Assembly: GCF_000758605.1 (NCBI RefSeq)
Contig: NZ_CP009282.1
Location: 7,440,001 to 7,504,000 of the forward strand
Direction: 5' to 3'
DNA length: 64,000 nt
From: Paenibacillus sp. FSL R5-0912
Lineage (GTDB): Bacteria > Bacillota > Bacilli > Paenibacillales > Paenibacillaceae
A program made the position numbers and the translations under genes. Below are positions 2,742 to 11,604 of the stretch, piece after piece. Every line of letters begins with the position of its first letter. Within the stretch, counting starts at the first letter, position 1. The notes beneath the pieces are model-generated. The model ran no database searches. It saw nothing but the letters and a program-made list of their open reading frames with translations, and was not told the origin of the DNA.

Positions 2742-4307
2742 TTATTTCAAATATTTCCTCCGGTACAGCCTGTAGCCGATCGTAAGCAGCCCTCCGAACA
2801 AGAGCAGTGCAATCAGGATCACAATAATAAAAAACTGGTTCTGCACGCTGAACAGCCTGTTGAAGCTCGTAGCCTGCTCCTCCTGGTACTGGTAATCGGC
2901 TGCGACTGTCTGCGGGGTATAGTCGACGTTCAGATTGTTGCCGTTGATGTAAATTACCCCATCCGCTGATTCGATGGTGTTGATATCTGTAACAACGTTA
3001 TGGGCCTCCCGTTTATAGTCGGCGAACGTATACCACTCTTCCTCCAGATTCTGCATCAGACTGTCCAGTGCAGCCTCATCCTCAGGCAAGTCGACAGTAA
3101 CTGCCGCATTCAGCGGAAGCTCCGGCATCGCCTTGCCGGTCCTGCTGATCCCTTGCAGGAATTCCAGTGGGAGGCTGTACAGGGTGGACGGGAAGGTGAC
3201 CGAGGTATCCGTCTGTTCCATATATCTGGCTTCTTCATCCGCATAGAGTACCGCCGAGTCGAAGAAGCCCATACCCGCCGTAGAATACTCCTTGTCATAC
3301 GTCCAGTAGCCTTCTGCAGCCATACCCAGCGGAGCTACACCGCCCTCCGCCAGCACATTGATGAAGCTGTTCATCTTGACATGCAGCGACCGGTCACTAA
3401 GGCTGATCGGCGGTCTGACCGCCGGAGCATTGACAACAATGCTCCCATTACGGGACTGCACCGTTCTCAGGGCTTCCAGATACCGCTTCATCGCCGGAAA
3501 ATCCGTATTGCCAAACACCGGCCGGACACTGGCGATGAATGGAATTCCGCTCTGATACAGCTTGTCTGCCGTTTGCTCAAGCAGCTCGAGATCGGAGAAG
3601 GGATAGATCTCCTTGAGCACCAGATACGTACGGGGCCGGGCGGAGGATTTCAGCCAATCCTTCAATACATATGCCGCGGCCATGCTGCTTAAATCGCCAG
3701 GCTTCAGATAGGGCATATAAGTAAATTCGCCGCGGCTTACCGCGTAGGGCATTTGCACCCCGCCATCTTCAAAAGACCACCCGCCGTACGTACGGCCGCC
3801 CTGTGAAGCAGTGATATAAGGCATTTCTTCCACTTCCAGCGGAATGCCGGTGAATCCGCCGATGGAGAGGCTTGCGCTGGCTCCATGCCACACGTCTGTC
3901 TTCAGCTGCATGGCCTGCTGCACCCGGTCCGGCGGCTGGTATCCGACATACATCACCGACCCTTTATAGCCTGCTGCGTCCTGCAAGTAAGCCCTATTCG
4001 TAATCTTCAGCTCCGCACTGTTAATGACGGTGATCATTCCGGAGTAGGCAGACAGGCTGCCTTGCTCATAATCGGATATATTCTTAAGCGTAACCTGTGT
4101 ACTGTAAGCGGCAAGCAGCCGCTGCAGCTCTGCCACATTCCCTTCCTTCCCCGTGCCCCTCGCCAGGCTGTCATAGAGCAGCAGAATATGCTGCGCAGCG
4201 GCAGGTGACGCGGCGGCGGAAGCAGCCGGGGCGGAAGCAGCCGGGGCGGGCAGCAGGAGATTCCCAGCCAGGAGCAGCAGTAGAACGATGATCCCTCCGC
4301 GTTTCAA
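2742..4307 (-). CDS. ydaL: DUF2334 / polysaccharide-deacetylase-like membrane-anchored protein (YdaL-like)
   Basis: 521 residues with a signal peptide (residues 1-26), an Ala-rich linker, an extracytoplasmic body and a C-terminal anchor (about 490-515) followed by the basic tail RRKYLK. The middle matches the DUF2334 pattern: KEIYPFSD (232-239), then SGIPFIASVRPVF (253-265). In active-looking relatives a His-rich HGYTH-type motif follows a strand near position 291; here that position reads VVNAPAVR, so the usual metal-binding His residues seem absent. The start overlaps the stop of the upstream membrane protein by 4 bases (ATGA), indicating translational coupling. Role inferred from operon: modifying or handling the nascent exopolysaccharide outside the membrane. 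Confidence 0.75.
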   Translation of the reverse strand: MKRGGIIVLLLLLAGNLLLPAPAASAPAASAAASPAAAQHILLLYDSLARGTGKEGNVAELQRLLAAYSTQVTLKNISDYEQGSLSAYSGMITVINSAELKITNRAYLQDAAGYKGSVMYVGYQPPDRVQQAMQLKTDVWHGASASLSIGGFTGIPLEVEEMPYITASQGGRTYGGWSFEDGGVQMPYAVSRGEFTYMPYLKPGDLSSMAAAYVLKDWLKSSARPRTYLVLKEIYPFSDLELLEQTADKLYQSGIPFIASVRPVFGNTDFPAMKRYLEALRTVQSRNGSIVVNAPAVRPPISLSDRSLHVKMNSFINVLAEGGVAPLGMAAEGYWTYDKEYSTAGMGFFDSAVLYADEEARYMEQTDTSVTFPSTLYSLPLEFLQGISRTGKAMPELPLNAAVTVDLPEDEAALDSLMQNLEEEWYTFADYKREAHNVVTDINTIESADGVIYINGNNLNVDYTPQTVAADYQYQEEQATSFNRLFSVQNQFFIIVILIALLLFGGLLTIGYRLYRRKYLK

Positions 4308-5851
4308 AGGCTCACCCCATTATTCAGGGCAGCATATTCTGGGGCCGGCACGGAAGGCGGTGCAGCCGGCATGGATTTCCGGGAGGAGATTCCGCGGCCA
4401 ATGACGCTCGATATGACCTGGAAAGTGATCAGGTCAAAGGCTAAGGTAAACAGGAATTCATGCTTCGCAATATCGGCATCGCCGGCTCCGATAATGGAGA
4501 CTACAATGCCGGACAATCCGACAAGCATTGTAGCCAGAATCACGAACAGCCGCTGCATTCCCCGGTAGTCCCGCACCCGGACCGCGCTCACGAAGGAAGG
4601 CATATAGACACCTGTAATCACAGCCATCCAGAGGAGGATGAAGGCAAAGGTGCGGGGAGCCAGCTTCTCCTTCAGCGTACTGTATACATTGAAGAAATGA
4701 CTCTGCGCCCGGAACTCCTTGCCAGCAGATTTCTCATAATTTCCCATCGCCGCGGGCTTGATCGTATAGGCGCTTTCGGCAGCCGTATTGAGAATCGAGC
4801 CCAGCTGGTCCGGATGCGTAACATAATATTTCAGAATCGAGATGAAACCGTATTGGCTGTAGAAATCCTTTTCCAGCAGATCCGATTTCACATCCACGGT
4901 CCCGTATTGATCATAATAGGTATTCTCTTTGAGAATTGCGTACTGTTCATTAATCCCGAAGGATTGAAGCGCGGTCTCCGGATTCTCTGATTCCATTAGC
5001 ACTCCGCGGGTCATGGCATGATACTGGTTAATATTCACGAACTCTTTGGAGATATTAAGATAGGTGGCAACACCGGCGAACATCATCAGGGCGGCGGACA
5101 GGAGCGTGACCCAGCGGAACAATTTATCCCGGCGGATCCAGACAAGTGAGATAGAGAGCAGGGAAATCACCATGCCCACAGGAGCATTTTGCTGCTTGGA
5201 GGTCGTTAGGATCAGCGTGCTGACCAGAAGTACCGCCAGCATGGCGTAATCGTTGTATCGTTTTCGGTACAGCAGCAGCCATGAGGCGAACACCAGAATC
5301 ATCGTGACCATTACCAGGCTTTCGCCGAAGAACGAATTGAAGTAGGCGGTATACCCCGTGTCCCCGAAGATAAAAACTGCCAGAACCGCAACAATCATCC
5401 CCCGCTTCCGGGACATCTTGAACGTAACGGCTTCAATGAGCAAGTAGACAGCAGCTACATACAGGAGCGTATAGATCGCGGCCTGAAACCGGATATCGAA
5501 CACTTCCTTGCTGAATACCAGCTTATTGACGAACAGCGCCAGCTTGATAAACAGGGACTGGGAGGAGACCAGCATCGAGCTGTTCTCGTTGTAGTACTGG
5601 TAGATTCCAAACTGCTTGACGAAATACCCGAAATACTGGCTGTCATAATCCGGGAGGTTGAAGTACAGTCCATTGCTATATATAATCCGGAAAAAGTCAC
5701 CGTTATCTGCCATTCCCACATAGGGAGCGGTAAAGAGCGCGATGACTGTTACGAGCAATACGCCAAAAGCCGCGGCAAACGCTGGGGTAATCCGAAGGCT
5801 GGCAAGGGTTATGCCGGGCCGGGTTGATGTTTTCACTGGGTTGTCTATCAT
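4304..5851 (-). CDS. polytopic membrane protein of exopolysaccharide operon, possible glycosyltransferase
   Basis: 515 residues with roughly ten hydrophobic spans. The first periplasmic loop contains VGMADNGDFFR and many Tyr/Asn residues, a layout similar to lipid-linked-sugar glycosyltransferases of the GT-C kind and to proteins annotated as hexose transferase WsfD in Paenibacillus S-layer glycan loci; that resemblance is from memory and not proven. It occupies the operon position held in B. subtilis by ydaK, a GGDEF-type c-di-GMP receptor, but I see no GGDEF-like motif. It is coupled by ATGA overlap to the YdaL-like gene and lies 18 bases after the GH8-like lipoprotein gene. Function uncertain; membership of the operon is firm. 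Confidence 0.6.
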   Translation of the reverse strand: MIDNPVKTSTRPGITLASLRITPAFAAAFGVLLVTVIALFTAPYVGMADNGDFFRIIYSNGLYFNLPDYDSQYFGYFVKQFGIYQYYNENSSMLVSSQSLFIKLALFVNKLVFSKEVFDIRFQAAIYTLLYVAAVYLLIEAVTFKMSRKRGMIVAVLAVFIFGDTGYTAYFNSFFGESLVMVTMILVFASWLLLYRKRYNDYAMLAVLLVSTLILTTSKQQNAPVGMVISLLSISLVWIRRDKLFRWVTLLSAALMMFAGVATYLNISKEFVNINQYHAMTRGVLMESENPETALQSFGINEQYAILKENTYYDQYGTVDVKSDLLEKDFYSQYGFISILKYYVTHPDQLGSILNTAAESAYTIKPAAMGNYEKSAGKEFRAQSHFFNVYSTLKEKLAPRTFAFILLWMAVITGVYMPSFVSAVRVRDYRGMQRLFVILATMLVGLSGIVVSIIGAGDADIAKHEFLFTLAFDLITFQVISSVIGRGISSRKSMPAAPPSVPAPEYAALNNGVSL

Positions 5852-5869
5852 ACGGATTCACCTTCGTTA

Positions 5870-7033
5870 CTATTGTTGTGGGTTGGAATAGGAATAAGCG
5901 AGGAGCGCCATCAGGTTGTCAAAAGAATACGCCTGGCCGGCAGCCTCATCACCGAACCCGCCATACAGCGGACTTGCAGCATTCACGGCTCTGAATTCAT
6001 TCATCCGTTCAATACTGGATGTGTAGAGAGACTGATCGCCCAGCACAGCGCCGATCATGGCCGTGAGCGCATAAATCGCCGTAGAACGGATATCATTCGT
6101 CCGCTGGCCGTCACGCGTATACTGCCCGTACAGTGTGCCCGCCGTAACCTGCTCTTTGATATAACGGATGCTCGCCGGCTTCTGCCGGTTGCTCTCGGTC
6201 AAATGAAGAATGGTAAGCAAAGATTCTACTGTGTTGATATGTTCGGAACTGTACTGGCCTGTCTTGTAATCAAATCTTGTCTCATAGAACGGGAAAGAGT
6301 CGGACAAATATCCGTCTTCCAGAATTCCGCCCATATTATTCAACAATATACCGCTTAATTCGCTAGATATCGACAATTTTCGCAACACACTCAGATCAAT
6401 ATAACACAAAGTTACGAACCCGTTGGTGGTTTTGAAAATATTGTCATAAAAATCATACATGTATCCATCTTTTACATTATTATCATAGAATCTTCGGCCA
6501 TATTTATCGGCTGCTTCCGTATACTCAGGCTGATTAAATACCTCTCCTGCTTCATACAGAGCGCCGATCAGCCGCAGGTCGTCTACCGCTGCATTGACGG
6601 TGTATTGCTTCTGTTGCTTAGGACTGAACCTGTAACTGAAGCCGCCCTCCATATCGAAGGTATCGCGGGCCAGCGTCCACTGCTGGTCATATCTCTTCTG
6701 ATCTCCGTTAAGCACGGCCGCCCTCATCAGAAGAGAAGCCGATTCGCTCAGAACCTCATGGCCTGTAGCCATCTCTGCCGATTCGCCGGTTTCCTGCAAA
6801 TTCGTATATACCCCGTAGGGGCCAGTGAGCTGCGTATCTATGAATTTCAGTAATTGCTGTACTTCACCCGCTGTGTCAAGCAGCGGCTCCTCCGGCACGT
6901 TCGTTCCCGCAGGAGTAACTGCCGGAGAAGAAGTAGCCGCGGATGGTACGGGCCGGGCCTGATTACCGCTGCATGAGGTGATCAGAAGCAGCGATATACC
7001 CAGTGCAGCAGCCTTGCTGATTGTACTCCCCAA
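5870..7033 (-). CDS. ydaJ: glycoside hydrolase family 8-like lipoprotein (YdaJ-like)
   Basis: 387 residues; first gene of the exopolysaccharide operon. The start is a TTG at 7033 with AAGGATG about 9 bases upstream; the nearby ATG at 7038 is out of frame. The N-terminus is a lipoprotein signal with lipobox LITSC, so the protein should be lipid-anchored outside the membrane. The body fits the GH8 (alpha/alpha)6 barrel: a ATGHEVLSESASLLM segment corresponds to the catalytic-Glu region and AAVDDLRLIGALYEAG to the Asp-containing second motif. Family knowledge: YdaJ/BcsZ-type hydrolases trim the polymer made by the adjacent synthase. Family membership fairly sure; catalytic competence not demonstrated. 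Confidence 0.75.
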   Translation of the reverse strand: MGSTISKAAALGISLLLITSCSGNQARPVPSAATSSPAVTPAGTNVPEEPLLDTAGEVQQLLKFIDTQLTGPYGVYTNLQETGESAEMATGHEVLSESASLLMRAAVLNGDQKRYDQQWTLARDTFDMEGGFSYRFSPKQQKQYTVNAAVDDLRLIGALYEAGEVFNQPEYTEAADKYGRRFYDNNVKDGYMYDFYDNIFKTTNGFVTLCYIDLSVLRKLSISSELSGILLNNMGGILEDGYLSDSFPFYETRFDYKTGQYSSEHINTVESLLTILHLTESNRQKPASIRYIKEQVTAGTLYGQYTRDGQRTNDIRSTAIYALTAMIGAVLGDQSLYTSSIERMNEFRAVNAASPLYGGFGDEAAGQAYSFDNLMALLAYSYSNPQQ

Positions 7034-7162
7034 TTCATCACATCCTTAAAAGACAAGTCTTTATATTGGCCATAATAATATAACGGTAATTTATGTCACA
7101 TTGTTTACTGTTTTGGCGAACATTATGTGTCTAAATCATAGATAATTCCATTTATTCAAATA

Positions 7163-7206
7163 AAAGCAGGGCTGCCTGGATCAAATCGACCCAACCAGCC
7201 CTGCTT
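7163..7206 (-). terminator. rho-independent terminator after the K+ channel gene
   Basis: An 11-base perfect stem (AAGCAGGGCTG with CAGCCCTGCTT) closes on itself just downstream of the stop of the K+ channel gene at 7223 and is followed on the minus strand by TTTATTTG. It separates the channel gene from the exopolysaccharide operon. Confidence 0.85.
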
Positions 7207-7222
7207 ATGTTTACAATATACT

Positions 7223-8239
7223 TTAGCCTGTTTTAATTCTCCGGTAAGTCTCCTCATCGGCAACAATATAGAGTCTGGCATCGGCCGGAATCGGCTGCTC
7301 CAGCTTACGGTTAATGCCAAGGTCGCCACGGTCGGACAGCAGGGTTGCTCCCTGCCGCAGCAGAGCCTGAAAGGCGTCACCATAGGTATTCCAGGCACTG
7401 CTGCGCGGAATCTCATAGATATCATCGCCATGCTGGCGGCTGAGCAGTTGGGTGATCACTTCAGAATTGCCTTCCTGCAGGGCAGATCTTACCGCGAGTC
7501 TGGAGATGGCATCATGGGAGAGCACGAACTCGTTCACATGAACATGCTTGAAGTTCTGAATGTTCTTCTCCTGCATGATTTCTACGGTGGTATGTACTTG
7601 CGGGGCGATCCGTTCAATACTGGAGGCGATCAGCAGCGTCTTGCCGTCGCTCAGCGAGGCCTCGTCTATACGGGTATCGCTGAACACGATCGCCGCTCTG
7701 GCGCTCCCGATGTTCGCCTTCAGCAGAATATCATCACTGGAAGCATCCCCGCTGATGAAGTGAACCTGCTCCAGCTGTTCCAATGGATGCCGGCCGTTCT
7801 CATCAATAATCACGATCTTGCACTTGGCGTCATAACACAGAATTTCATCCACAGCCGCCTGCGTTTTACGGCTCCAGTTAATCAGTATGACATGATTATG
7901 CCCGTGAAAGTTCAAGGTTCCGGCTCCTCTCCTGCGCTGCATCTCTCCCATGGCATCGATAACCTTACCGATGACCAAACTGAGCAGTCCGATGCCAAAG
8001 ATATATATGAATATCGTAAATACCTTACCAATGGCTGTAGTGGCGAAATAGTCGCCGTAGCCTACAGTAGCCATTGTGGTCATTACCCAATAAAAGGCGT
8101 TGAACCAGTTATGAAAAGTGTCCGGCTCCAGCAGGAACGCAGTGGTTGCACTCAGAATGATGAATGCCAGGATGATCAGAGCTATGGACTTCTTCTTTAG
8201 ATGCAGCAGCTTGCCGGAAATTCGGATTAGAAAATGCAA
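7223..8239 (-). CDS. two-helix potassium channel with RCK/TrkA-N domain
   Basis: 338 residues. The start is TTG at 8239 with AGGG 7 bases upstream. Two membrane helices (about 17-37 and 72-95) flank a pore loop with the selectivity filter TVGYGDYF (58-65). A cytosolic RCK domain follows from about residue 113 (HNHVILINWSRK, VIIDENG, FISGDASSDDILLKANI), with an RCK C-terminal part after about 240. This architecture matches MthK- and B. subtilis YugO-type K+ channels. It is the last gene in a run of minus-strand genes with the DUF350 and ATP-grasp proteins, separated from DUF350 by 99 bases that carry a hairpin, so it may be read through or separately transcribed. Channel assignment is firm; ligand unknown. 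Confidence 0.92.
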   Translation of the reverse strand: MHFLIRISGKLLHLKKKSIALIILAFIILSATTAFLLEPDTFHNWFNAFYWVMTTMATVGYGDYFATTAIGKVFTIFIYIFGIGLLSLVIGKVIDAMGEMQRRRGAGTLNFHGHNHVILINWSRKTQAAVDEILCYDAKCKIVIIDENGRHPLEQLEQVHFISGDASSDDILLKANIGSARAAIVFSDTRIDEASLSDGKTLLIASSIERIAPQVHTTVEIMQEKNIQNFKHVHVNEFVLSHDAISRLAVRSALQEGNSEVITQLLSRQHGDDIYEIPRSSAWNTYGDAFQALLRQGATLLSDRGDLGINRKLEQPIPADARLYIVADEETYRRIKTG

Positions 8240-8278
8240 TGCTCATCCCTGCTTTCGGGTAGTTAGCTTAAGCCGGCC

Positions 8279-8319
8279 GGGCAGCTGCCGCCCCAACATC
8301 CGAGGTACGGCAGCTGCCC
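8279..8319. repeat. inverted repeat between DUF350 and K+ channel genes
   Basis: GGGCAGCTGCCG (8279-8290) and CGGCAGCTGCCC (8308-8319) are perfect inverted copies around a 17-base loop. No T-run follows on the minus strand, so it may be an attenuator or an mRNA-stabilising hairpin between DUF350 and the channel gene instead of a full terminator. Confidence 0.7.
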
Positions 8320-8338
8320 TGCTGTAAGGCCGGTCCTT

Positions 8339-8731
8339 TTAAATAATCAGGCTGCTGACCGCAAACGCTGTTCCGACAAAGACCATACAGAGTGTTACGC
8401 CTACCGCAACATTCCCTTTCTGCAGCTGCTCCGAAATCCGGAACCCGGGAGTGAACAGCTCAAAGATCCAGTAAGAGGCAACCAGGCACACATACCCCAC
8501 CGCGAACCAGAGCATCATGAACCAGATGGAGGTATTCGTATAGGCCGCCACACCAAGAATGATCGCCGTGGCCAGAAACTTGCCGCCAAAGGCCAGTGAT
8601 ACCGCGACATTCCCCTTCTTCAGCTCCTCCATGTCTTTAAAAGGCGTCATCAGGGTGAATACAACCATACCCAGCACCTGAAGCAGAACAATGGTCAGAA
8701 TACTAACCACCAGATTAATAACAATCGTCAA
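8339..8731 (-). CDS. DUF350 family membrane protein (YjfL-like)
   Basis: 130 residues with four hydrophobic helices and the typical repeated pattern of DUF350: two similar halves, each with a helix pair and a KKGNVAVSLAFGGKFLATAI / QKGNVAVGVTLCMVFVGTAF motif. The duplicated GNVAV motif is the family signature. Family knowledge: DUF350 proteins (E. coli YjfL) occur beside YjfC-type ATP-grasp enzymes. The ATG overlaps the stop of the upstream lipoprotein gene by 4 bases (8728-8731), so the two are translationally coupled. Biochemical function is unknown; a membrane partner in an envelope-maintenance system is inferred from context. Confidence 0.85.
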   Translation of the reverse strand: MTIVINLVVSILTIVLLQVLGMVVFTLMTPFKDMEELKKGNVAVSLAFGGKFLATAIILGVAAYTNTSIWFMMLWFAVGYVCLVASYWIFELFTPGFRISEQLQKGNVAVGVTLCMVFVGTAFAVSSLII

Positions 8732-9381
8732 TTAGCCCACCCCCGGAATTTCGCATAGGCCGAATCATAGTCGGCGAAATCATGTACTTCCTCCAGCACT
8801 ACGGAGGCTGTCTTTTGTTTCTCGAGTGCTGTATAGCGCTTGTCGTCAATCGGCTGCTTGATCCGGTTGCCGGAAGGCAGCTCAAGTACGGCAAAGTTTC
8901 TGGTTTTATCCTGATACTGGGTTTTGTATACCCCGACAAGATCTACATCAGTTGTGATCGATACCTTGAGATTAGCCAGATCCTCCGTTGCTGTCTTCTG
9001 GTCCCCGTATGATTTAAGCGTAGTCCAGGAAGACAGCTTGATATCGTTCTTCTGATCGGCATCTGTCACGAGCTCAGCGTCCATGAACTGCAGCGTCCAT
9101 ATGGTATCGCCTGTAGCATAATTGCCGTCGTTAGGCAGCAGCTCATTATCCGGCAGCACGGTCATGTCGCTGCCGATCAGATCGCCTACCTTGCCTTCGA
9201 CCACCCGGTAATCCCACGGTACCCGCGATACACTGTCCGTTGTTTCGGTATCCGTATGGAACACACTGTTACTGTTTCCTGAGCATGCGCTTAGCAGCAT
9301 GACTGCCAGAAGCAGCATTGCGGTCAGCGCCCCGCCCCTAATTCTGCGTCCGGCGGCACGTCCCTCTCTACCCTTGTTCAT
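8728..9381 (-). CDS. conserved lipoprotein of the ATP-grasp/DUF350 cassette
   Basis: 217 residues from the ATG at 9381, which has a GAGGGGG ribosome site 7 bases upstream; a TTG two codons earlier sits too close to that site. A basic N-terminus and hydrophobic core end in the lipobox LLSAC. The mature protein is mixed alpha/beta with no catalytic motif I recognise. Its 5' end overlaps the 3' end of the ATP-grasp gene by 14 bases and its 3' end overlaps DUF350 by 4 bases, so all three should be made together. Probably an extracytoplasmic partner of the cassette; the family is not identified. Confidence 0.75.
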   Translation of the reverse strand: MNKGREGRAAGRRIRGGALTAMLLLAVMLLSACSGNSNSVFHTDTETTDSVSRVPWDYRVVEGKVGDLIGSDMTVLPDNELLPNDGNYATGDTIWTLQFMDAELVTDADQKNDIKLSSWTTLKSYGDQKTATEDLANLKVSITTDVDLVGVYKTQYQDKTRNFAVLELPSGNRIKQPIDDKRYTALEKQKTASVVLEEVHDFADYDSAYAKFRGWAN

Positions 9382-10591
9382 CTTCAAGCCCCCTCACTCC
9401 TAGCGCGATAAAATGACTGGCATTGCCTGTAATCGGTCCGCCAGCCCTGCCGAGCAGACCGCAGGGCTTCCCGTTAATCACGAACATGCCGGTCAGCAGG
9501 TGAAGCTCTCCTTCACTGGTCTGAATCCGGGCCATTTCGGCTCTTTTTTGATAGACCACCGGGAACAGCTGGCTGCTGTCATAGCCTTCTTCATCCTCTA
9601 TTTCAAGCGTACCGCTGTCATCAAAAATCCGCACGGACCCGCCTTCCCGGCCGAAGACAGACTTGGACACAAAGCTTTCGGAGAATACCGCCTTATTATA
9701 CGTAGGCAGTATGTAACGGGAGATGACCTGACGTTCCTCTTCGCTGAACAGCAGGCCCAGCTCATACATCCCCCATACCGCAGCAATCAGCCCCTTGGAT
9801 TGCAGGATGATGCTGTGCGGACCGTTGAACAGCTGGAGCTTCCCGGTCTCGATGGCGTAGGCCAGGGCGTCGCCGCCTTCATCCACAGCCATCCACTCCT
9901 TCGGATAGAGCGCGAACATCCGCTCAATGATCCGGTCCTCTGCGTCCTTCACTACACCTTCATCAATCCACAGGTCCAGGCAATCGACGCAGCGGATATC
10001 CAGTCCGCTATGTGCTGCCAGTGCATCTATCGTTCCGGTATCCTCCTGATGGCTGCCATAGGCAACACAGGCTGCCGTATCCGGACGTTCAGCGCCCCAG
10101 GCGGCAGCAAGCTGCTGCTTCATTGCGGCATTGGCATTCCCGATACCTGCCTCTGCGCAGATCCACGGCGTAGCAATAGAGGCCTCCACATAGCCGGTCG
10201 GCGTATCGGCATTCAGCTCCAGCAGCTTAATCGTCCCGTCTCCGGCTACAGCAAAATCAAACCGGGCATACCGGCTAATCAGCCCCGGCTCAGGCATTGG
10301 GCAGTCGTCGAGCATCTGCCACAGCACCGGGGGAATTCCCAGCAGATCATACAGGTCATGCTTAAGATGGACGTAGCGGACCGCCTTATCCAGAACCATC
10401 CACAGTCCTGATGAGGCATCCTTCAGTTCCCGGTAGGTCTCTCCGCGCATTACAGCTATCGCATCCAGCCAATATTCCTCTTCCTCCAGGTCAGCCCAGG
10501 TGAAGCCCAGCTCATGCAGCTGCTGTACCCGGGGTGCCCGCTCCAGAGCGGACTGGTCCAGATATTCGAAGACGCTCTCTGCCGGAATCAT
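9368..10591 (-). CDS. glutathionylspermidine synthase-family ATP-grasp ligase (YgiC/YjfC-like)
   Basis: 407 residues matching the stand-alone ATP-grasp domain of glutathionylspermidine synthase. Visible motifs: SRYARFDFAVAGDG (106-119) and LLELNADTPTGYVEAS (123-138), the characteristic nucleotide/metal-binding segment, and near the C-terminus GLLGRAGGPITGN. The amidase half of E. coli Gsp is absent, as in YgiC and YjfC. Expected reaction: ATP-dependent amide-bond formation between a carboxylate and an amine; the substrate is unknown. The gene is coupled by ATGA (10588-10591) to a Ser/Gly/Lys-rich membrane protein, mirroring the ygiB-ygiC pairing in E. coli, which makes that protein a possible substrate. 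Confidence 0.85.
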   Translation of the reverse strand: MIPAESVFEYLDQSALERAPRVQQLHELGFTWADLEEEEYWLDAIAVMRGETYRELKDASSGLWMVLDKAVRYVHLKHDLYDLLGIPPVLWQMLDDCPMPEPGLISRYARFDFAVAGDGTIKLLELNADTPTGYVEASIATPWICAEAGIGNANAAMKQQLAAAWGAERPDTAACVAYGSHQEDTGTIDALAAHSGLDIRCVDCLDLWIDEGVVKDAEDRIIERMFALYPKEWMAVDEGGDALAYAIETGKLQLFNGPHSIILQSKGLIAAVWGMYELGLLFSEEERQVISRYILPTYNKAVFSESFVSKSVFGREGGSVRIFDDSGTLEIEDEEGYDSSQLFPVVYQKRAEMARIQTSEGELHLLTGMFVINGKPCGLLGRAGGPITGNASHFIALGVRGLEDEQG

Positions 10592-11292
10592 CCGCCGAAG
10601 CCGCTCTTGCTTGAGCTTTTGCCGGAGCTTTTACTTGAGCTGGACTTCGAAGTCGAGGAACTTGATTTGTTAGAGCCCAGCCCGCTGGAGGTGCCGCCGA
10701 TTCCGCCTGATTTCGAAGAGGTGTTCCTTCTGGTGATGGAGCCGGTCGATGAAGTCGAAGTCTTCGGTTTCACCACTGATCCGGCTACAGGCTTGTTCTG
10801 GAAGCTGCCGCTGCTGTAGGTTGGTGGCTTATAGGCAGTACGTGTGCCTCCGTAATAAGTCGGCCGGTCATTGTACCAGCCTCTTGAAGAGTAGAACGAA
10901 CCGCTGTTGAACAGCATGTGGTACAGAAGCACATCATCCCAGCCGAATCCCGAGTTATAACCGCCATAGTTGTTAATTACCGTTGTCCCGCCTGATGTTA
11001 CCGCTCCCTGCCCTTCCTGGACAGTCTCCTCCTGATTCTCATCCGGATATGGAATATTCCAGTCAACATTCTTGTCGAAATAATTCTTAACTTCCTCGGT
11101 AGACCAGGATACCAGCTTCGGTTCATCCCCCGTACCGCCGGTACTCCCGCTGGCACCAGCGCCTCCGGGAATAAATAACGCATTGGCCAGCAGGGCAATG
11201 CCGAGCGAGGTCGACAATACGCGGATCGGCTTGCCATCAGGGGTGAACAGCCTGCTTACAGCAGGTTCTTTAACATTTTCGTCTTTTGCCAA
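10588..11292 (-). CDS. membrane protein with Ser/Gly/Lys-rich low-complexity tail
   Basis: 234 residues from a TTG at 11292 with GGAGG 8 bases upstream. A cytosolic N-terminus leads into a hydrophobic segment (about 27-46, STSLGIALLANALFIP), then an acidic region with FDKNVDWNIPYPDENQEE, a Gly/Tyr-rich stretch, and a tail from about residue 150 that is almost entirely Ser, Lys, Gly and Thr and ends SGFGG. In composition it resembles E. coli YgiB (DUF1190), whose gene also precedes an ATP-grasp ligase. Transcription order is small protein, this gene, ligase; the stop overlaps the ligase start. I infer that the tail may be modified by the ligase or may contact cell wall polymers. Confidence 0.7.
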   Translation of the reverse strand: MAKDENVKEPAVSRLFTPDGKPIRVLSTSLGIALLANALFIPGGAGASGSTGGTGDEPKLVSWSTEEVKNYFDKNVDWNIPYPDENQEETVQEGQGAVTSGGTTVINNYGGYNSGFGWDDVLLYHMLFNSGSFYSSRGWYNDRPTYYGGTRTAYKPPTYSSGSFQNKPVAGSVVKPKTSTSSTGSITRRNTSSKSGGIGGTSSGLGSNKSSSSTSKSSSSKSSGKSSSKSGFGG

Positions 11293-11321
11293 CTTGGGCC
11301 CTCCTTTCCTGATAATGTTCC

Positions 11322-11540
11322 TTAACCTTCGGTACGCATCGGAACCAGCAGAAGCTCAAGCTTCCCTTCGTCCACATTCAGCCGGCCCTCTACAGCCTCG
11401 AACTCACGGCCGCCTACGACTATATAATTCACATGCTCCAGGGCCGTGATCATGTTCATGCTCCAGACGCGCTCCTCAATAATCTGCAGGTCTCCTTCCG
11501 GCATCTTCTCGAACAGGATGACCTTCATTCCATTATCCAC
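11322..11540 (-). CDS. small protein at head of the ATP-grasp cassette
   Basis: 72 residues if begun at the GTG at 11540, which has AGAAGGG about 11 bases upstream; an upstream in-frame GTG at 11564 would lie almost on the predicted transcription start and lacks a ribosome site, and an ATG at 11528 is a further option. No signal peptide or membrane span. The sequence (KVILFEKMPEGDLQIIEE, then a beta-rich C-terminal half with YIVVGGREFEAVEGRL) suggests a compact beta domain. It ends 29 bases before the Ser/Gly-tail protein and follows a sigma-W-like promoter. Family not recognised. Confidence 0.65.
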   Translation of the reverse strand: MDNGMKVILFEKMPEGDLQIIEERVWSMNMITALEHVNYIVVGGREFEAVEGRLNVDEGKLELLLVPMRTEG

Positions 11541-11576
11541 ACCATACCAATCCCTTCTGAACACTCTTATGCTTCT

Positions 11577-11604
11577 GATACGCTGCCGCTATTATTTCGT
11601 TTCA
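11577..11604 (-). promoter_or_regulatory. ECF sigma factor promoter, sigma-W-like
   Basis: On the minus strand TGAAAC (11604-11599) and CGTATC (11582-11577) are separated by exactly 16 bases. This matches the B. subtilis sigma-W consensus (TGAAAC, N16, CGTA). It lies directly upstream of the small protein that opens the ATP-grasp/DUF350 cassette, implying induction by envelope stress. Confidence 0.75.

Follow-up and report, generated by a model that had tools for sequence, protein, structure and literature searches.

A Paenibacillus operon of the YjfC/YgiC ligase type with a SigW-type promoter and a candidate C-terminal acceptor for a polyamine

The window analysed here, a 64,000-nucleotide stretch of Paenibacillus sp. 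FSL R5-0912 (contig NZ_CP009282.1, positions 7,440,001 to 7,504,000) that forms part of a complete 7.7-Mb genome, carries on its minus strand six genes for, in order, a 72-amino-acid protein, a Ser/Gly-tail protein, a GSP_synth ligase, a lipoprotein, a DUF350 protein and a K+ channel. By gene content and order, this cassette is a conserved Paenibacillus operon of the YjfC/YgiC kind, and the reading favoured here, with a probability of roughly 0.6, is that of a SigW-type envelope-stress operon whose ligase would tag the tail protein with spermidine before export. Envelope stress would lead SigW to turn on the operon; the cytoplasmic ATP-grasp ligase would activate the C-terminal glycine carboxylate of the tail protein with ATP, before or during export, and the activated glycine would be joined as an amide to a primary amine of spermidine. 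The tail protein, now with a polycationic end, would be exported and leave a tethered positive charge in the cell envelope, and the DUF350 protein, the lipoprotein and, in genomes that have it, the K+ channel would take part in this response at the membrane. An earlier note, made from the letters of the window, had supposed that the ligase modifies an envelope protein; that supposition is plausible, with the Ser/Gly-tail protein and its C-terminal glycine as the likely acceptor, and it is this substrate hypothesis for the ligase that the cassette adds to knowledge.

The ligase and the protein encoded before it

The features on which the proposal depends are the following.
10588..11292, minus strand: gene 2, 234-amino-acid Ser/Gly/Lys-tail protein with the end ...SKSGFGG, proposed ligase acceptor, recognised by the tail rule given below
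10591..10602, minus strand: codons for the C-terminal GFGG of gene 2, with xFGG in 21/21 close relatives
9368..10591, minus strand: gene 3, GSP_synth (PF03738) ATP-grasp ligase of 407 amino acids, homologous to E. coli YjfC/YgiC, recognised by Pfam, PDB matches and motif residues

The gene 3 product matches GSP_synth over residues 23-396 of 407 (E 5.6e-56, 190.8 bits against a cut-off of 29.3), and its homologues in the PDB are YjfC (7uk6, 1.5e-25) and YgiC (7uk8, 5.9e-17). Across a 22-ligase alignment extending from Bacilli to E. coli, the residues R110, D112, E125, N127, D129, K266, K310 and R315-E316-G317 are invariant, and RxD, LELNADTPT, K266, K310 and REG are aligned and unchanged in YjfC and YgiC. 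In catalysis these motifs presumably serve as they do in GspS (glutathionylspermidine synthetase), the enzyme that couples spermidine to glutathione at its glycine carboxylate. GspSA has the same PF03738 synthetase fold and makes the ATP-dependent amide of glycine carboxylate and spermidine that is proposed here, whereas its amidase domain is not found in the window ligase (407 amino acids against a 619-position model; NCBIfam score of 30 against a cut-off of 882). The ligase carries no export signal. The assignment to the YgiC/YjfC type made in the earlier note agrees with the Pfam family, the PDB homologues and the shared residues: by homology, gene 3 is a member of the YgiC/YjfC peptide-spermidine ligase family, and peptide-spermidine ligase activity is predicted for its product. 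RefSeq names YgiC and YjfC peptide--spermidine ligases, and they are cited as such in the literature.

The gene for the Ser/Gly-tail protein overlaps the ligase gene by 4 nucleotides (ATGA). Its product has a single hydrophobic segment, at the N-terminus (about residues 23-43), and matched nothing in Pfam at E values up to 1; its tail-protein counterparts bear lipobox-like signals. In all 21 close relatives the xFGG end is kept, though the preceding Ser/Gly tract differs in length, and on a wider scale the proteins encoded directly before the ligase have different bodies and similar ends.
Window: ...SKSGGIGG...KSGFGG
Brevibacillus: ...GAKGGIGSSSHSSSS
Exiguobacterium: ...SKGGFGG
Erwinia: ...SRGGFGGSSYHRSGG
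Sulfurimonas: ...KTSAYGG
Sphingobacterium: ...QRGGFGKSATTTPKASAGS
Schlesneria, a planctomycete: ...HGGFGGTGSHLSGGS
E. coli YgiB: RGGFG...SRSMGG
E. coli YjfM: ...SRGGYGRSSSARGHWGG (SRGGYG...HWGG)

When a mechanical rule (Ser/Gly tail, GxG core, [GS][GS] end) was applied, a tail protein was found near the ligase in 121/141 loci, compared with 5/6998 other open reading frames of the same loci, and a relaxed rule placed one in 136/143 loci (131 distinct proteins); the rule was written after part of the data had been viewed, and the two locus sets overlap. The last two residues of the 131 proteins were GG in 107, SS in 11, GS in 8 and SG in 5. Tails were found near the ligase in at least seven phyla (Bacillota, Pseudomonadota, Campylobacterota, Bacteroidota, Planctomycetota, Nitrospirota and Actinomycetota), most commonly with the tail gene overlapping the ligase start by 4 nucleotides, and in rearranged operons the tail gene was shifted by about 1 kb yet present (L112-L114, L188, L193, L195, L198, L199, L201, L202, L206 and L212). 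Without their last 45 residues, the proteins formed two large clusters, of 83 and 44 and unrelated to each other, plus four singletons, by a single-linkage clustering that may over-join Ser-rich proteins, and the tail was common to all. Judged by position and ending, the Ser/Gly protein stands in the place of YjfM/YgiB, with its extreme C-terminus as the conserved part, a feature overlooked in the earlier note. The protein is not of the GlyGly-CTERM (rhombosortase) type, as it ends at GG with no helix and basic end beyond. Tail proteins of other Bacilli (L086, L088, L092, L094 and similar) contain a CYDxDNDGYCDD motif resembling calcium-binding loops, which the window protein lacks.

Acceptor, amine and rival explanations

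The chemistry of GspS on glycine, the adjacent tail gene and a precedent in SUMO make the tail end the simplest reading of the acceptor, and the C-terminus of the tail protein is probably what the ligase modifies. In fission-yeast SUMO, spermidine is attached to the C-terminal LGG carboxylate with a shift of +127.147 Da (PMC12270671); that conjugate resembles the one proposed for the window in that a protein ending in GG carries the polyamine as an amide, and differs in its eukaryotic E1/E2 chemistry, without an ATP-grasp enzyme, and in a protein that is not exported (PMC12270671). In its general form, the proposal states that in many phyla a dedicated system would attach a polyamine to a single exported or lipid-anchored protein in each operon, at its C-terminal glycine, with the Ser/Gly tail, its GxG core and its GG end as the recognition signal on unrelated bodies and with the Paenibacillus version under envelope-stress control; even odds are given to this generalisation.

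Several observations weigh against tagging of the tail end. Low-complexity Ser/Gly ends could persist for reasons other than ligation, and the modification would have to precede export, because the tail protein is predicted to be exported and the ligase has no export signal. The tail counts are descriptive and not independent, because of the partial viewing that preceded the rule and the overlap of the locus sets. A few loci, such as L097 and L215, have no recognisable tail; about 15% of the tail proteins end in Ser, so that the end is not strictly glycine; and neither PspA nor DUF1190 occurs in the cassette.

The identity of the amine is less firmly predicted than that of the acceptor, and spermidine, rather than another amine, is put at evens. 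SpeD (PF02675) and the SpeE N-domain (PF17284) were not found in the genome by searches in which control genomes were positive, and the usual SpeD/SpeE route to spermidine is thereby rejected; SpeD occurs in 17/61 members of the genus, compared with 53/61 for the ligase. These results favour a tail joined to an amine other than spermidine (e.g., carboxyspermidine, norspermidine, another diamine or an amino acid), as does the general knowledge that NspC yields norspermidine or spermidine, depending on the lineage. Such an amine is nevertheless rather unlikely, given that annotation assigns spermidine to this enzyme family and that the genome contains a carboxyspermidine-type pathway pair. This pair comprises an nspC/CASDC-type decarboxylase above its cut-off (507.9 against 409), encoded directly after a carboxyspermidine-dehydrogenase-like gene in a tandem at L152 (G000:C1, about 2,687,900-2,690,224), and is consistent with a carboxyspermidine route as an alternative supply of spermidine.

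It is improbable that the ligase turns other peptides into a small peptide-polyamine metabolite, with the tail protein as a separate structural protein of the wall or membrane and its Ser/Gly tail as a mere flexible linker. The related GspS does work on glutathione, exported proteins often carry Ser/Gly linkers and some of the tails end in Ser; against this, a linker would not need a conserved end, and the extreme C-terminus is conserved beside the ligase over unrelated bodies and seven phyla, often with the 4-nucleotide overlap. A regulatory role, in which the GG end as a pseudo-substrate occupies the ligase pocket and holds the enzyme back until stress pulls the tail protein to the membrane, would fit the gene overlap and the conserved end through a stable complex, and stoichiometric co-expression would suit inhibition, but it is very unlikely, as export would part the two proteins and the related GspS uses a C-terminal glycine carboxylate as its substrate.

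For the favoured tagging of the tail protein, a purpose in envelope charge or stability is a doubtful assignment, and positive charge at the envelope as the physiological outcome is a guess. Ligases of the YgiC/YjfC type are widespread, E. coli included, and DUF1190 proteins and DUF350 still have no function in annotation; an acceptor encoded next door would reduce the problem to a single mass-spectrometry question, for which the expected shift is +127.147 Da. If true, the proposal would mean that bacteria tag exported proteins with polyamines at the C-terminus and would account for the recurrence of polyamine genes in membrane-stress operons. No earlier proposal of YgiB or YjfM as substrates was found in the literature on YjfM or on YgiC and spermidine, a search outside which the primary paper on YgiC/YjfC activity lies.

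Promoter, limits and gene order of the operon

The remaining features of the operon are listed from its promoter to its end.
11579..11604, minus strand: extracytoplasmic function (ECF) promoter of the SigW type, TGAAAC-N16-CGTA, kept in position and sequence in relatives
11322..11540, minus strand: gene 1, 72-amino-acid protein with a GTG start (V-DNGMKVILFEK...), start and sequence conserved, no Pfam family
8728..9387, minus strand: gene 4, 219-amino-acid lipoprotein with lipobox LLSAC, unannotated, described from an alignment and an AlphaFold2 model
8339..8731, minus strand: gene 5, DUF350 (YjfL family) membrane protein, Pfam 1.8e-29
8279..8319, minus strand: GC hairpin between DUF350 and channel genes that lacks a T run and is no classical terminator (fold -51.5 kcal/mol, z -3.6)
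7223..8239, minus strand: gene 6, K+ channel with TVGYGD filter and TrkA_N/RCK domain, recognised by Pfam, directly 3' of DUF350 in close relatives
7157..7206, minus strand: intrinsic terminator and operon end (fold -34.4 kcal/mol, z -6.8, then UUUUAUUU)

The promoter proposed in the earlier note, at 11604-11579, was found to be conserved, and a SigW equivalog is present in the genome. In an alignment of 21 loci, the hexamer and CGTA were intact upstream of the operon in 20/21 close relatives and formed the sole well-conserved upstream block. The pattern TGAAAC-N15-17-CGT was found upstream in 42/47 small-type loci, compared with a rate of 0.3% in shuffled sequences and no hit with the pattern reversed, at 52-92 nucleotides from the start in all small-type matches except L177 (236 nucleotides); it was also found in 7/41 loci of the type with a protein of about 150 amino acids. 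A one-off match is roughly what chance would give (0.89 per window in the 9-base form), and no genome-wide enrichment was found (36 matches against 43 for the reversed-pattern control), so that single matches carry no weight unless conserved; the promoter evidence is strong because it is conserved in position and sequence across related loci. One SigW equivalog scored above cut-off in the genome (247.9 against 243.1). Dependence of the operon on SigW itself is inferred, and another sigma factor could serve, because ECF factors are numerous in this genome (38 matches).

The identical promoter core recurs between sigW and the gene after it, which is read as an rsiW-like anti-sigma gene (L242, 921-946; G000:C1:6927920-6927945), and its position suggests an internal autoregulated promoter. 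The pattern scan also returned an identical 26-mer, TGAAACGCACACGTCACCGCGGCGTA, six times (G000:C1 345571, 1932131, 2032885, 2462345, 4770663 and 5842197), probably a mobile or repeated element.

All six minus-strand open reading frames were found where the earlier note had placed the cassette, with Pfam naming the ligase, DUF350 and the channel. The small gene was rightly recognised there, but a length of 72 codons is likelier than one of 80, as the GTG at 11540 is the start conserved in relatives. The channel, which had been thought a probable sixth gene, is the last gene of the operon, since the terminator (an 11-bp outer stem and a U-run, at about 7206-7157) sits directly after it. With no U-run in the hairpin at 8279-8319 and a terminator only after the channel, transcription through the channel gene is expected, with DUF350 and channel in one transcript. 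The hairpin itself is a perfect 12-bp GC inverted repeat and possibly a processing or stability element. Beyond the terminator, positions 4304-7033 of the window hold genes for a 387-amino-acid lipoprotein-like protein and a 515-amino-acid protein with multiple transmembrane segments, a pair that follows the cassette in many close relatives and not in more distant ones.

The full order small-tail-ligase-lipoprotein-DUF350-channel was found in 19 same-genus regions, i.e., all those read that carry an orthologous ligase, with varying flanking genes, and in one region of another genus; the conservation of order for which the earlier note had proposed a search thus holds in 19/19. Among the 61 genus genomes, 53 have the ligase, 52 as a close orthologue and one (G010) as a distant one. 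The lipoprotein was found in exactly the 52 orthologue genomes and neither in G010 nor in the eight ligase-free genomes, so that orthologue and lipoprotein agree, both present or both absent, in 61/61. The operon of G010 (L077) consists of channel, 157-amino-acid protein, 100-amino-acid tail protein, ligase and DUF350.

Known systems and the remaining genes

On its gene content, the cassette is not a new kind of operon but a Paenibacillus form, without PspA, of the yjfKLMC type known from E. coli. It shares with yjfIJKLM-yjfC and ygiB-ygiC the ligase family and, encoded directly before the ligase, an exported protein whose tail has the form GxG...GG (YjfM/YgiB), and with the yjf operon DUF350 (YjfL), which the earlier note had named as the ligase's neighbour there, in agreement with the E. 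coli annotation. The window cassette differs from yjf in lacking PspA (YjfJ), DUF2170 (YjfI) and DUF2491 (YjfK), the first two without a Pfam match among the six proteins, and from both E. coli operons in its extra unannotated 72-amino-acid protein, its lipoprotein and its ECF promoter. YgiB and YjfM match DUF1190 (PF06693) whereas the window tail protein does not, the tail alone being shared.

The third group of operons linked to the phage shock protein (PSP) system comprises CesT/Tir-PspA, a GspS-like ATP-grasp enzyme, a K+ channel, DUF350, a DUF1190 lipoprotein and DUF2491, and variants lacking the CesT/Tir-PspA dyad are listed (Ravi et al. 2024, PMC11237479). The window resembles this group in its combination of GspS-like ligase, ligand-sensing K+ channel and DUF350 and in having an exported tail protein and a lipoprotein, the latter of another family; unlike it, the cassette has other small proteins in place of the dyad.

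Pfam and NCBIfam searches returned no significant family for the 72-amino-acid protein, the Ser/Gly protein or the lipoprotein. In other Bacilli, a protein of about 150 amino acids precedes the tail gene; the 72-amino-acid protein as one half of it was rejected (alike by eye, hhalign probability 1.9%, E 0.026), as was the longer protein as YjfI (E 0.37). The AlphaFold2 model of the lipoprotein (mean pLDDT 80.6, core above 90, against 63 for an earlier model) predicts an all-beta protein of two small barrel-like domains. Foldseek found no PDB match for it at E 1e-3 and VIA-align gave only Z of about 6, to DUF2500/OB-like barrels, for which reason no relative is named; YjfK (DUF2491) was rejected (no Pfam match; hhalign E 0.15 over 8 columns).

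The channel has Ion_trans_2 (6.9e-17) and TrkA_N (7.5e-10) domains in Pfam. An orthologue is present in 47/52 cassette genomes of the genus, the other 5/52 being without, and also in G010, and more distant Paenibacillaceae (e.g., L163, L164, L166 and L172-L179) keep the first five genes with no channel there. Homologues recur near the ligase in distant Bacilli (L077, L088, L106, L112, L181, L186, L194, L198, L202, L206, L208, L212 and others), by which distribution the channel is a recurrent, optional and dispensable partner. The earlier view that it was acquired here is contradicted by these loci, and a local acquisition is rejected because K+ channels have already been described in such operons (PMC11237479).

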